A stretch of DNA of 64,000 bases, taken from positions 2,394,501 to 2,458,500 of the forward strand of contig CP030158.1 of assembly GCA_003285105.1 (NCBI GenBank), in the 5' to 3' direction. The notes beneath the pieces are model-generated. The model saw nothing but the letters and a program-made list of their open reading frames with translations, was not told the origin of the DNA and did no database searches. Positions 25,359 through 54,400 of this stretch are shown piece by piece. The stretch comes from Roseithermus sacchariphilus (GTDB lineage: Bacteria > Bacteroidota > Rhodothermia > Rhodothermales > MEBIC09517). Both the position numbers and the translations under genes were made by a program. How positions within the stretch are numbered: the first letter of the stretch is position 1; each line of letters starts with the position of its first letter.

Positions 25359-25961
25359 ATGGCGTCTGCGCCCATGCAGGTCGGCCTCTACGGCGGTTCG
25401 TTCAATCCGCCGCACCTCGCCCACCTCATCATTGCCGAACACGTCCGCGAACAGTTCGGGCTGGATGCCGTCTGGTGGGTGCCGAGCTTTCAGCCGCCGC
25501 ACAAGGAGCGCGGTGCGCTGGTGGCCCCCGTGCATCGCCTGGCGATGACGCGCCTGGCGACGGCGGGCCATCCGGCCTTCCGCGTGTCGGATCTGGAGAT
25601 CCGTCGCGGAGGCGTCTCCTACACCGTCGAGACGCTGCGCGTGCTGCAGGAGGCCCACCCGAACGTCGTCTTTTCGCTCGTGATCGGCGGGGATAGCCTG
25701 CGCGACTTCGGCACGTGGCACCGTCCCCGTGAGATCGCCGAGCGGGTACCGCTGCTCGTCTACCGGCGCCCCGGCGTCGAGACGGGGGCGCTCGACCCGG
25801 CCGTGGCCGCCCGCGTGCGGTTCACCGAGGCGCCGCTGATCGACATCTCCGGGACGGACATCCGCCGGCGCTGCCGGGAGGGTCGGTCGATCCGCTACCT
25901 CGTGCCCGAGCCGGTGCGGCACTACATCGAGGAGCACGGGCTGTACCGCCGGAGCGTGTGA
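25359..25961 (+). CDS. nadD: Nicotinate-nucleotide adenylyltransferase
   Basis: This 200-residue nucleotidyltransferase makes deamido-NAD from NaMN and ATP. The ATP-binding motif GLYGGSFNPPHLAHL (family (H/T)xGH type) lies near the N-terminus. WWVPSFQPPHKER binds substrate, and the C-terminal ISGTDIRRRCREG corresponds to the ISSTxxR motif. It starts 3 bp after bamD; ATG 25374 (MQVGLYGG) is a possible shorter start. A minisatellite begins 5 bp after its stop. Confidence 0.95.
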   Translation: MASAPMQVGLYGGSFNPPHLAHLIIAEHVREQFGLDAVWWVPSFQPPHKERGALVAPVHRLAMTRLATAGHPAFRVSDLEIRRGGVSYTVETLRVLQEAHPNVVFSLVIGGDSLRDFGTWHRPREIAERVPLLVYRRPGVETGALDPAVAARVRFTEAPLIDISGTDIRRRCREGRSIRYLVPEPVRHYIEEHGLYRRSV

Positions 25962-25966
25962 GCCGT

Positions 25967-26093
25967 CGGCGGACGCATCGGCGGACGCATCGGCGGACGC
26001 ATCGGCGGACGCATCGGCGGACGCATCGGCGGACGCATCGGCGGACGCATCGGCGGACGCATCGGCGGACGCATCGGCGGACGCATCGGCGGA
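25967..26093. repeat. 12-bp minisatellite, ten perfect copies
   Basis: The unit cggcggacgcat is repeated ten times without a mismatch (25967-26086), followed by a 7-bp partial copy. It fills the spacer between nadD and the GH3 gene. The unit is a multiple of three, so open frames run through it on both strands (MRPP and RRTH repeats), but these lack any other gene features. There are no spacers between copies, so it is not a CRISPR array. Perfect identity implies recent expansion. Confidence 0.95.
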
Positions 26094-26142
26094 CCGAGGG
26101 CGTCCGTGAGCGGGTGTTCATCTCTCATCCTTCCTTGATCGC

Positions 26143-35015: not shown

Positions 35016-35272
35016 CGGCGGGTGAGGGGCGAGATGCAGGGTAAAAACGCGTTCTAACGCGGGGCGGAACCCGCTGATCCCGGAAGAGCGGGCAGGGGCT
35101 TCCCACGCGAGAACCCGGAGCCCGGCGCGGCGGTACACGGCGCGGGCATGGAGGGGGCGGGCGCCGCGAGGCAAGCCCGCCGGCGTCGGCGCCTCTTCAT
35201 CCCGTCACCGAATCGCAGGTTCCCGGCTTCCCGGCCGGCCCCGGTCCCATGCCCCGTTGCCGTTTCACGTCC

Positions 35273-35418
35273 GTTCGGGATAGAAAACGGCTACCACGCA
35301 CCCATGGCGCCCGGATGCGGTCATCCCGGGTGGCAGCGTGGAGGCCTTTTTCTGGATTCCCGCGTTCGCGGGAATGACGGTGAACGCACGGTGTACCGGA
35401 TCACAGAGACCTATTCCG
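35273..35418 (+). repeat. Dispersed palindrome-bearing repeat, copy 1
   Basis: The 146-bp element is nearly identical to the inverted copy at 52768-52936. It contains the palindrome ATTCCCGCGTTCGCGGGAAT (35356-35375), flanked by shared stretches such as ggcagcgtggaggcc and gatagaaaacggctacca. Its end lies 14 bp before the prmC start codon. The palindrome fits the ATTCCC-N8-GGGAAT pattern known from Neisseria dRS3 repeats; a relationship is not implied. Confidence 0.9.
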
Positions 35419-35432
35419 AACTCACGTTGTCC

Positions 35433-36326
35433 ATGTCTGCGAACGACCCGGAGGGGCGGCCCTGGACCCGCCGGCGGCTGCTGGAGGCGGGCACGGCCGC
35501 GTTGCAGCGGCGGCGGATCGAGCCGGCGCAGCGCCAGGCGGCGTGGATGCTGGCCGAGGTGCTGGGGTGCACCCACGCCCAGTTGCTGGCCTACGGCGAG
35601 CAGCCCGTCCCGGAGGCCGCCGTGGCCGTGTTCGAGGCGATGCTGGCCCGGCGGCTGCGCGGGGAGCCGCTCCAGTACATCCTGGGCCACACCGACTTCT
35701 TCGGCCTGCGGCTGCGGGTGACGCCGGCGGTGCTCATCCCGCGCCCGGAGACGGAGCAGGTCGTCGAGGCGGCGCTGGAGGCGGTGGAGGGCGTCGCCCG
35801 GCCGCGCATCCTGGACGTGGGCACGGGGAGCGGGTGCATCGCGCTGGCGCTGAAGCACGTGCGGCCCGAGGCGGCCGTCTGGGCGTGCGACGTCAGCCCG
35901 GAGGCGCTGGCGCTGGCGGCCGAGAACGCGGCGGCGCTGGGGCTGGAGGTGACCGTTCTGGCGGCAGACGTGCTGGCGCCCGACGTCGTCGACCGGGTGC
36001 CGGCCGACCTCGACCTGCTCATCTCCAACCCGCCCTACATCCCCGACGCCGAGGCGGCCACGCTGGAGCGGGAGGTGCGGGACTACGAGCCGGCCCTGGC
36101 CCTGTTCTCGGGCGATGACCCGCTCCGCTTCTACCGGCGGCTGGTGGCCGTGGCCCCCCGGCTGCTGCGCCCCGGCGGGTGGCTCGTGCTGGAGACGCAC
36201 GCCGACTTCGGCGAGGCCGTGGCGGCGCTGGCCCGGACGGCGCTGGACGAGGTGCAGGTGCGACGCGATCTGGCCGGACGGCACCGGATCGTCGTGGCCC
36301 GGCGGCCGGGCGGCGGAGGCGGCTAG
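35433..36326 (+). CDS. prmC: Peptide chain release factor N5-glutamine methyltransferase
   Basis: This 297-residue enzyme methylates the GGQ glutamine of release factors. The N-terminal helical domain (RRRLLEAGTAALQRRRIEPAQRQAAWMLAE) is followed by the signature EPLQYILGHTDFFGLRL and IPRPETEQVVE. The SAM-binding motif is ILDVGTGSGCIALAL and the catalytic motif is ISNPPYIP. ATG 35433 is chosen because upstream in-frame sequence is the dispersed repeat. The gene converges with, and overlaps by 4 bp, the amidohydrolase gene on the other strand. Confidence 0.94.
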   Translation: MSANDPEGRPWTRRRLLEAGTAALQRRRIEPAQRQAAWMLAEVLGCTHAQLLAYGEQPVPEAAVAVFEAMLARRLRGEPLQYILGHTDFFGLRLRVTPAVLIPRPETEQVVEAALEAVEGVARPRILDVGTGSGCIALALKHVRPEAAVWACDVSPEALALAAENAAALGLEVTVLAADVLAPDVVDRVPADLDLLISNPPYIPDAEAATLEREVRDYEPALALFSGDDPLRFYRRLVAVAPRLLRPGGWLVLETHADFGEAVAALARTALDEVQVRRDLAGRHRIVVARRPGGGGG

Positions 36327-49075: not shown

Positions 49076-49092
49076 TGCGGGCTTCTGGCTGT

Positions 49093-49187
49093 GGGCTACT
49101 GGCTGCGGGCTACTGGCTGCGGGCTACTGGCTGCGGGCTACTGGCTGCGGGCTACTGGCTGCGGGCTACTGGCTGCGGGCTACTGGC
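49093..49187. repeat. 14-bp tandem array
   Basis: The unit gggctactggctgc is repeated six times (49093-49176) with a partial seventh copy. It begins 17 bp after the hybrid kinase stop codon. The copies are identical, implying recent expansion. Confidence 0.92.
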
Positions 49188-49192
49188 TTCTG

Positions 49193-49380
49193 GCTGACGG
49201 CCGATCGCTGACGGCTGAAAGCTGACGGCATCGTGTCAGCACAAGTCCTTCCCCGTGGCCGCAGGCCGCACAGGGGGAAGTCCCCGCAGGGGGAAGGGGG
49301 TCAACACCCGCCGCACCGCTGCCATCGCCCGGGGGCTACCCCTCCGGCCCTGCGGGCCACCTCCCCTTCGCAAGGGGAGG
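49193..49380. repeat. Spacer block repeat, copy A
   Basis: This 188-bp block runs from gctgacggccgatcgctg to caaggggagg. It contains two nested hairpins: ggccctgcgggcc, and ctccccttcgcaaggggag. It is duplicated almost exactly at 49396-49582; the only differences are near tcaacacccg. Confidence 0.93.
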
Positions 49381-49395
49381 AGCTTCTAGCTGACG

Positions 49396-49582
49396 GCTGA
49401 CGGCCGATCGCTGACGGCTGAAAGCTGACGGCATCGTGTCAGCACAAGTCCTTCCCCGTGGCCGCAGGCCGCACAGGGGGAAGTCCCCGCAGGGGGAAGG
49501 GGGTCATGACCGCCGCACCGCTGCCATCGCCCGGGGGCTACCCCTCCGGCCCTGCGGGCCACCTCCCCTTCGCAAGGGGAGG
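49396..49582. repeat. Spacer block repeat, copy B
   Basis: This is a direct copy of 49193-49380, one base shorter, with tcatgacc in place of tcaacaccc. The two copies are separated by 15 bp. Near-identity suggests a recent tandem duplication or assembly of reiterated elements. Confidence 0.93.
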
Positions 49583-49747
49583 ATCTGGCTGCTCGCTGCG
49601 GGCTACGGGCTGCTGGCTTCTGGCTTCTGGCTGACGGCTGAAAGCTGACGGCACCGGATTGTTACGAATCCCGGGGTGGGCTGGGGGGTTGAGCAGGGAC
49701 ACGCGTCGGCGGATCGGCGCGCCTGTGCCATCAGCATCCTCTGCACC

Positions 49748-52415: not shown

Positions 52416-52942
52416 CCGGTGCGCGGGGGGATCCGGCCGCCGTGGCGGACCGATGACGTCGGCCGAGGGAGGCGCGCACAGCCGAGCGCGAGCCGGAACG
52501 GGGGGAGCGAGAGCAGGGCGATGAGGCGGGAGGCGTGGAGGCGGGGCATCGTCGTAGACGAAAGAAGGAGAGCACGCGGGCGATGCCGTACCCTCCGGCT
52601 TCTGCCGATCCGCTGCAACGGGGCAGGGCCGGAGGCACGCACCGGATGCACGAATGGGATGACCGCAACCTTCTCCTGAACGCCCTGTGTCACTTCCGGG
52701 GGAAATGTATATTCCGAGCGCCGGCGCCGAGGCGGACAGGCGATTCTCGAACATGAACACATGAAATCGGGATAGGTCTTTGCGATCCGGCACACCGTGC
52801 GTTTACCGTCATTCCCGCGAACGCGGGAATCCAGGAAAAGGCCTCCACGCTGCCACCCGGGATGACATGAAGATCCAGTCCGGGATGACCGCATCAGGGC
52901 GCCATGGGTGCCTGGTAGCCGTTTTCTATTCCGAACCGACGT
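52416..52942. other. Spacer between the NTF2-like gene and the FGE-like gene
   Basis: This 527-bp spacer has no plausible gene. Around 52681-52713 the sequence is less G+C-rich and contains tatatt (52708-52713), with a weak ctgtgt 17 bp upstream, possibly a promoter. The right part is the second copy of the dispersed repeat. Confidence 0.65.
52768..52936 (-). repeat. Dispersed palindrome-bearing repeat, copy 2 (inverted)
   Basis: This 169-bp element is the inverted copy of 35273-35418, nearly identical but with about 23 extra bp duplicating a tcatcccgg stretch. The palindrome ATTCCCGCGAACGCGGGAAT (52811-52830) is conserved with perfect 9-bp arms. It ends 6 bp before the next start codon, again directly in front of a gene. 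Confidence 0.9.
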
Positions 52943-54400
52943 ATGAACAGCCCAACCGAACGTGACATGAACACGCCACAGCATTCGTATACCTGCCGTT
53001 TCATGCGCGGTGCGACGGCCCTCCTGCTGCTCGGCCTGGCATGGCTGCCTCGCGCGTCCACGGCGCAGACCTACGAGGTCGAGTTCACCGTCGTGCACGA
53101 CGGCGCGGCCGTCGAGGGGGCGAAGGTCGTCGCCCTCCATGCCGAAACGTACGCGCGGGTGGACTCGGCCTTCACGGATGCCTCCGGGAAGGCGGTGCTG
53201 GTGCTCGGCATCACCAACGTGGCGCGGGAAGAAGAGCCGGGCGTGCCGGATGGCGTCGAGATGTCGGTGTATCCGAACCCGGCGGCGGCGGGGCAGGCCC
53301 GGGCGCGGATCGTGGCGTCGGCGCCCCGGCAGGCCGATCTCGTCGTCTACGACGTGCTCGGGCGGGAGGTCGAGCGCACCCGGGCGTTCCTGCGTGCCGG
53401 CGTCAACGAGGTAGCGGTGCCGGGCACCGGCGGGCTGGCGGCCGGGACGTACTTCGTGCAGCTTCGCCTCGGCGGCACCGTTCGCACGCGGCCGCTGGTG
53501 GTCGTCGGAGGCAGGGGGCAAGCGGTGGGGGCGGCCTCGTCCGTCGTTGCCCGGGCCGATGCCTCACCCGCCACGCCGGCCGTGGCCGCCCGCGCGGAGT
53601 ACCGCTTCGAGGTCAGCGCCGAGGGCTTCGACCCCTATCTCTCCCTGCCGGTCGACGTGGCCCGGCTGGACCGGCGGCTGCTGACCGTCGAGGTGTTCGA
53701 GCCCTTCGTCAACAGCATCGGCATGGCGTTCGCCCGCATCCCCGCCGGCACCTTCCTCATGGGCGACATCCAGGGCGTCGGCTATGGCGATGAACTTCCG
53801 GTGCACGAGGTGACGCTGACGAAGGACTTCTACATCGGCAAGCACGAGGTGACGCAGGCGCAATGGCAGGCGGTGATGGGGAGCAACCCGAGCTGGTTCT
53901 CGTCGTGCGGCGGGGACTGCCCGGTGGAGTGGGTGTCCTGGGAAGAGGCGCAGGCGTTCATCGAGGCGCTGAATGCGTTGGAGGGGACGACGGCCTACCG
54001 CCTGCCCACGGAGGCGGAGTGGGAGTACGCCGCGCGGGCGGGGACGACGACGAGCTATGCCTTCGGCGACGATGAGAGCCTGCTCGATGACTACGCGTGG
54101 ACCCGAGACAACTCCGGCCGACGCACGCAGCCGGTGGGGCAGAAGAAGCCGAACCTGTGGGGGCTCTACGACATCCACGGAAACGTGTTCGAGTGGGTGC
54201 AGGACTGGTACAAGGGCGATTACTATCTCCACAGCCCCTCGGTGGACCCGCCGGGGCCGGACGTCGGCGCGGAACGGGCCATGCGGGGAGGCAGCTGGTT
54301 TTACAACGCCTACGATCTGCGCGTGGCGAACCGCGGCCGTGCCGCACCGGACTATCGGACCAACCACATCGGGCTCCGCCTGGTCAGAAGCGTGGAGTAG
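52943..54400 (+). CDS. Secreted formylglycine-generating-enzyme-like protein with internal sorting-like domain
   Basis: This 485-residue protein has a signal peptide (ATALLLLGLAWLPRASTAQ). Residues about 40-100 form a beta domain (VEFTVVHDGAAVEGAKVVAL). Residues about 105-190 read MSVYPNPAAAGQARARIVAS, LVVYDVLGREVERTRAFL and LAAGTYFVQLRLGG, the wording of a Type IX sorting domain, which is normally C-terminal but here is internal. The C-terminal FGE-sulfatase domain has FARIPAGTFLMGD, EVTQAQWQAVMGSNPSWFSSC, YRLPTEAEWEYAARAG and MRGGSWFYNAYDLRVANR. No cysteine stands in the RGGSW catalytic region, so true formylglycine synthesis is unlikely. ATG 52967 is an alternative start. Confidence 0.82.
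   Translation: MNSPTERDMNTPQHSYTCRFMRGATALLLLGLAWLPRASTAQTYEVEFTVVHDGAAVEGAKVVALHAETYARVDSAFTDASGKAVLVLGITNVAREEEPGVPDGVEMSVYPNPAAAGQARARIVASAPRQADLVVYDVLGREVERTRAFLRAGVNEVAVPGTGGLAAGTYFVQLRLGGTVRTRPLVVVGGRGQAVGAASSVVARADASPATPAVAARAEYRFEVSAEGFDPYLSLPVDVARLDRRLLTVEVFEPFVNSIGMAFARIPAGTFLMGDIQGVGYGDELPVHEVTLTKDFYIGKHEVTQAQWQAVMGSNPSWFSSCGGDCPVEWVSWEEAQAFIEALNALEGTTAYRLPTEAEWEYAARAGTTTSYAFGDDESLLDDYAWTRDNSGRRTQPVGQKKPNLWGLYDIHGNVFEWVQDWYKGDYYLHSPSVDPPGPDVGAERAMRGGSWFYNAYDLRVANRGRAAPDYRTNHIGLRLVRSVE

Follow-up and report, generated by a model that had tools for sequence, protein, structure and literature searches.

The window analysed here, a 64,000-nucleotide stretch of the Roseithermus sacchariphilus genome, contains two copies of a short repeated element, one upstream of prmC and the other beside an FGE-like gene (Table 1). 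Both neighbouring genes were confirmed by Pfam, as PrmC_N and FGE-sulfatase. The two copies are real, lie in mutually inverted orientation, and pair through arms that are 108 and 63 nt long and 92–94% complementary. They are two of the five long copies, here called family A, found in the one-contig, 4.81-Mb genome. The flanks are thus homologous beyond the two window copies, as the first-pass annotation had required of a true element. The five copies have ends and core in common, but they have diverged and some ends have been lost. The element is 161–184 bp in size and carries terminal inverted repeats (TIRs), ACGTSNGTTCGGGATAG...CTATTCCGAACTCACGT; both window copies are too short to encode a transposase.

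A first-pass annotation had located both sites correctly, but its edges (35273–35418 and 52768–52936) fell short of those set by the TIRs. Copy 1 ends 5 bp, and not 14 bp, before the prmC ATG at 35433. Similarly, the 6 bp previously left between copy 2 and the FGE-like gene disappear, because the element runs up to the base preceding the ATG at 52943, which itself lies within the target-site duplication. For this gene, the codon-usage model prefers 53003 over 52943, and by that model the start may be later than 52943.

Table 1. Coordinates of the two family-A copies in the window and of their parts
Feature	Position	Strand	Basis or remark
Family-A element copy 1, 161 bp, upstream of prmC	35267..35427	+	Five-copy alignment; edges from TIR position
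Copy 1, left TIR ACGTCCGTTCGGGATAG	35267..35283	+	
Copy 1, left-REP remnant GTCATCCCGG, apparently fused by deletion between direct repeats	35320..35329	+	
Copy 1, right CGTC-REP; minus strand reads GTCATTCCCGCGAACGCGGGAATCCA, preceded by C	35353..35378	-	Family definition of PMC3733652
Copy 1, right TIR (reverse complement ACGTGAGTTCGGAATAG)	35411..35427	+	1 mismatch to the IS982-type end ACGTNAGTTCGRNATAAG
Copy 2, left target-site duplication ATGAAC	52753..52758	+	
Family-A element copy 2, 184 bp	52759..52942	-	
Copy 2, right TIR, decayed: CTATCCCGATTTCATGT	52759..52775	-	
Copy 2, right CGTC-REP GTCATTCCCGCGAACGCGGGAATCCA, preceded by C	52808..52833	+	
Copy 2, left CGTC-REP remnant (GTCATCCCGGACTGGATCTTCAT and second GTCATCCCGG)	52857..52889	-	
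Copy 2, left TIR ACGTCGGTTCGGAATAG	52926..52942	-	
Copy 2, right target-site duplication ATGAAC	52943..52948	+	Holds the proposed start codon of the FGE-like gene

The palindrome and its REP dimer

The exact palindrome reported earlier for both window copies was borne out, at 35356–35375 in copy 1 and 52811–52830 in copy 2. Only 0.08 such matches were expected by chance in the window, at up to three mismatches. On its own strand, it reads CGTC-ATTCCCGC-GAAC-GCGGGAAT-CCA in both copies. CGTC-1 REPs are defined by a CGTC tag, an 8-bp stem starting with AT, a 4-bp loop and a CCA tail, and the CGTC-1 repeats of Neisseria have been equated with dRS3 (PMC3733652). The window palindromes have all of these features, and share the GAAC loop as well. 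Judged by its sequence, the palindrome is a CGTC-tagged REP, a member of the superfamily that includes Neisseria dRS3, and the dRS3 likeness first seen in the ATTCCC-N8-GGGAAT pattern is upheld. In the 244 genomes of the class, the REP core pattern was present in 30, and a reversed control pattern in none.

The palindrome forms the right-hand part of an REP dimer of the outward-facing (HH) kind, with the CGTC ends outside, an arrangement also known from CGTC-1. Traces of the pair are kept in copies 2–4, and the first (left) hairpin, GTCATCCCGGACTAGATCCGGGATCCATG, is best preserved in copy 3. In copy 1, the first REP is largely deleted. The 23 bp thought to be extra in copy 2 are no insertion, but a remnant of this left REP, which copies 1 and 5 apparently lost by deletion between the GTCATCCCGG direct repeats. 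Unlike CGTC-1, the REPs of the element are embedded between TIRs, occur in few copies, and in the window have mostly lost the left partner.

The palindrome is not conserved among the copies: it is perfect in the two window copies only, and degenerate in the other three. This gives no sign of a selective keeping of the palindrome. Copies 1 and 2 differ at ~8% of their sites, which for an unchanged 20-bp stretch gives 0.92^20, or ~0.19; its intactness in both window copies is therefore unsurprising.

At least two further repeat families of the genome, B and C, contain the same palindrome. Family B comprises nine copies of ~190 bp (L140–L148; near 1654718, 176764, 4357326 and elsewhere) with ends like TAGCTACCTGACACGTT. 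Its core is a CGTC-REP HH dimer, the linker of which, GCCTTTTTCTGGAT, resembles that of family A. One family-B copy (L145, 1214536–1214875) is interrupted by ~200 bp, which to the eye resemble an IS200/IS605 TnpB element at its right end. The window also holds other repeats: a near-perfect 12-bp tandem array (TCGGCGGACGCA) at 25954–26097, and 14-bp tandem repeats (GGCTACTGGCTGCG) beside two ~200-bp direct duplications at 49080–49670. A similar tandem repeat follows a family-B copy in L008 and suggests another dispersed repeat.

The REP core raises two other readings. In the first, the unit would be an independent REP dimer (REPIN) whose mover is a tyrosine transposase of the REP-associated type, with the outer inverted repeats being secondary. 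The core is indeed a CGTC-REP dimer, at least three repeat families of the genome have related cores with similar linkers, and genome G031 has a related core outside any recognised MITE. However, a search of this genome for the REP-associated transposase (Y1_Tnp, PF01797) found no such gene, and the survey that defined the family saw no transposase genes between CGTC repeats (PMC3733652). Furthermore, the homology between copies reaches the outer ends, and the target duplication stands exactly there. We consider this reading improbable. The second, a Neisseria-type dRS3 repeat used as an integration site by a phage or an IS110/Piv-type element, is hardly credible. The palindrome fits both the ATTCCC-N8-GGGAAT pattern and the CGTC-1 definition, REPs are known as IS targets (PMC1525189), and copy 3 itself has a REP next to its insertion site, but the palindrome is uninterrupted in both window copies, and 160–190 bp of flanking homology with inverted ends of its own is foreign to dRS3.

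IS982-type ends and target duplications

At the TIR edges of copy 2 stands an exact 6-bp duplication, ATGAAC, and a match of this length in one fixed frame has a chance of 1 in 4096. This is the one clean target duplication among the five family-A copies: copy 3 matches at four of six positions, copy 1 has no match, and copies 4 and 5 are without a determinable site. Copy 3 is nested in a family-C repeat, with its junctions at the TIR ends, whereas the other family-C copies are uninterrupted. Copy 3 also lies between 21-bp direct repeats, but these were rejected as a target duplication, as they are absent from every other copy.

The outer ends resemble those of IS982-type elements. The right end of copy 1 has one mismatch to the IS982-type consensus, and the other ends differ at 3–4 of 18 positions. 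A search for the outer end across the class returned paired inverted hits ~120–315 bp apart in several genomes, and in the same class an IS982 gene was found between the same ends (genome G177, locus L321). When the TIR pattern AACGTSAGTTCGRKATAAG was scanned in 84,980 species, it was found in at least 119 genome stretches; many of the matches listed come from Bacteroidota, and some from Cyanobacteria and other phyla. Among these listed matches, paired ends ~1 kb apart enclose transposase-like ORFs, while others bound many MITEs of 100–260 bp. The two enclosed transposases tested belong to the IS982 family (NCBIfam NF033520, 242 and 264 bits; cutoff 130). Exact target duplications, all of 6–8 bp, flank 27 of the 59 short pairs among the matches listed.

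Since TIRs of this kind, with 6–8 bp duplications, bound both IS982-family insertion sequences and short MITEs, a MITE of IS982 type, now decayed, is the best reading of the element. Overall, we regard it as very likely that family A is a decayed, non-autonomous MITE of this type which carries a CGTC-REP dimer, and that it came to lie beside prmC and the FGE-like gene by chance. The idea of a mobile non-coding element, already voiced in the first-pass annotation, agrees with the dispersed copies, the ends, the target duplication and the nested copy 3, with the mobility most likely in the past. Comparable elements are known from Bacteroidota: MITE239 of P. gingivalis, with ends ACGTGAGTTCGATATAAAGGAA (PMC4596501), and the IS982-derived MITECca01 of Cardinium (PMC9769881). 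Like these, family A is short, transposase-less and intergenic, and its ends are of the ACGTSAGTTCGRKATAAG kind seen in MITE239 and ISPg3 (PMC4596501). It differs in its drifted ends (ATAG for ATAAG; CCG or CGG at left-end positions 5–7), its decayed copies, its CGTC-REP dimer core, and in that the genome yielded no parent to match it.

Indeed, a search of the genome for a parent IS with family-A ends found none, and no TIR pair ~1 kb apart occurs among the listed sites. Three IS982-family genes are present (L347, L348 and L349; 2050521, 2080423 and 2124610). Two of them sit in identical 1,005-bp copies, which suggests that this IS982 type was probably active recently. However, the inverted repeats around the IS982-family genes are AATGCGAATTAAGRGTTGA-like or TAACCCGATGTGCGGGTTTTAA-like, unlike those of family A. 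Without a matching parent, and with other IS982-type ends in the same genome, family A looks orphaned. It also looks genome-specific, as an exact pattern of the left end and inner flank had no match in 84,980 genomes, a set outside which its own genome perhaps lies. Family A was not found in a DNA search of 98 relatives, where the REP core alone matched, and an Rfam scan of the window gave no match.

The following course of events best explains these results. The ends, ACGTSNGTTCGGGATAG, would have been recognised in trans by an IS982-family DDE transposase, which would have placed the element between genes and duplicated 6 bp of the target. At the centre of the element lies an outward-facing dimer of CGTC-REP hairpins, and its left hairpin is partly or wholly missing from copies 1 and 2. 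All five copies would now be fossils, in a genome where the IS982-type elements present have different ends.

Position relative to genes

Placement before start codons had been suggested for the repeat, but it finds no support as a rule. With genes called by a simple codon model, 16 insertions that belong to families A, B and C lie at a median of 41 bp from flanking stop codons versus 126 bp from flanking start codons. Thirteen of these sites lie between genes of the same direction, two between convergent genes, and one, the prmC copy, between divergent genes. A similar pattern of insertion sites has been reported for REPs generally (PMC3733652).

The supply of a promoter or leader, another role proposed at first, finds no support either: scans for sigma-70-like and TAnnTTTG promoters gave no motif in the elements, and the copies lie nearer to stop codons. 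No intrinsic terminators were detected in the elements. The Shine-Dalgarno comparison is uninformative, because most window genes lack such a motif (present in 5 of 44).

Relatives also keep glgP and prmC as a divergent pair. Its gap is ~554 bp here versus roughly 50–345 bp in the nine relatives with an adjacent pair, the start positions of which were extrapolated from alignments. As evidence of mobility, these are empty sites at the gene level and not at the base level.

The alternative of a cassette with a regulatory role, as promoter, leader or protein-binding palindrome, and selected for its place just before start codons, was weighed against these data. Both window copies do adjoin proposed start codons, the RNA fold of copy 1 is strong (z = -4.2), and copy 1 is partly in frame with prmC, with an internal GTG accepted by the codon model. 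On the other hand, stop codons are the closer neighbours of the copies, promoter motifs were not found in the elements, three of the five copies have a broken palindrome, copy 2 does not stand out in its fold (z = -1.3), and the prmC homology in relatives mostly starts downstream of the element. A selected cassette is thus quite improbable in our view. For a decayed MITE, the sole effect would likely be local: the original upstream DNA would be displaced, and, if transcribed, a hairpin would stand in the leader.

CGTC REPs between transposon ends

CGTC REPs have been described as being without a dedicated transposase, and some of their dimers lie within longer palindromes to which no IS family was linked (Di Nocera et al., PMC3733652). 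Examples of REP dimers placed in this way are the CGTC-1 repeats of H. neapolitanus, in 41-bp palindromes, and GTAG-15 of A. variabilis (PMC3733652). As in family A, a dimer lies within a longer inverted repeat. The outer palindromes in these two organisms were not linked to an IS family, whereas the outer ends of family A match IS982-type elements, which show target duplications elsewhere.

Similar arrangements occur elsewhere. CGTC-REP HH dimers stand between IS982-type ends in a Balneolaceae genome (L198), in a Prevotella MAG (L245, L259) and in relatives of the class (L104, L185), and in altered form in family A here. In the 0.81 Mb of end-pattern matches listed, all three strict-pattern dimers are inside paired IS982-type ends, two of them from one genome. 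In addition, families B and C and a CTAG-bounded MITE in G031 contain CGTC REPs within different outer repeats. The G031 MITE is ~240 bp long, holds an HH CGTC dimer (L122, L124, L127, L129–L132), and is often located at contig ends; apparently, it breaks the assembly.

Other, GTCA-headed inverted cores, for example GTCATnTTGAGC and GTCATTTCGACG, were observed in several IS982-type MITEs (L188, L189, L190, L230, L239). Such cores are present in 11 of the 59 IS982-type MITEs among the matches listed, versus 5.4 in shuffles with a largest value of 11, a weak enrichment.

We tentatively propose that in Bacteroidota, CGTC REPs might be spread as the cargo of TIR MITEs, both IS982-type and other, with the outward-facing dimer as a recurrent core that several unrelated MITE families have captured. 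Conversely, the dimers may enter MITEs through a mobility of their own. In the literature searched, no paper was found that ties CGTC-REP dimers in longer palindromes to an IS family, and CGTC-REP dimers as cargo of IS982-type MITEs are apparently unreported.

In the window itself, the finding is an ordinary one, fossil MITEs beside two genes. The possible transport of CGTC REPs as MITE cargo, in turn, offers a testable answer to the question of how these repeats move (PMC3733652). The family-A elements point to a possible carrier for a hairpin family that is reported to have no transposase of its own.
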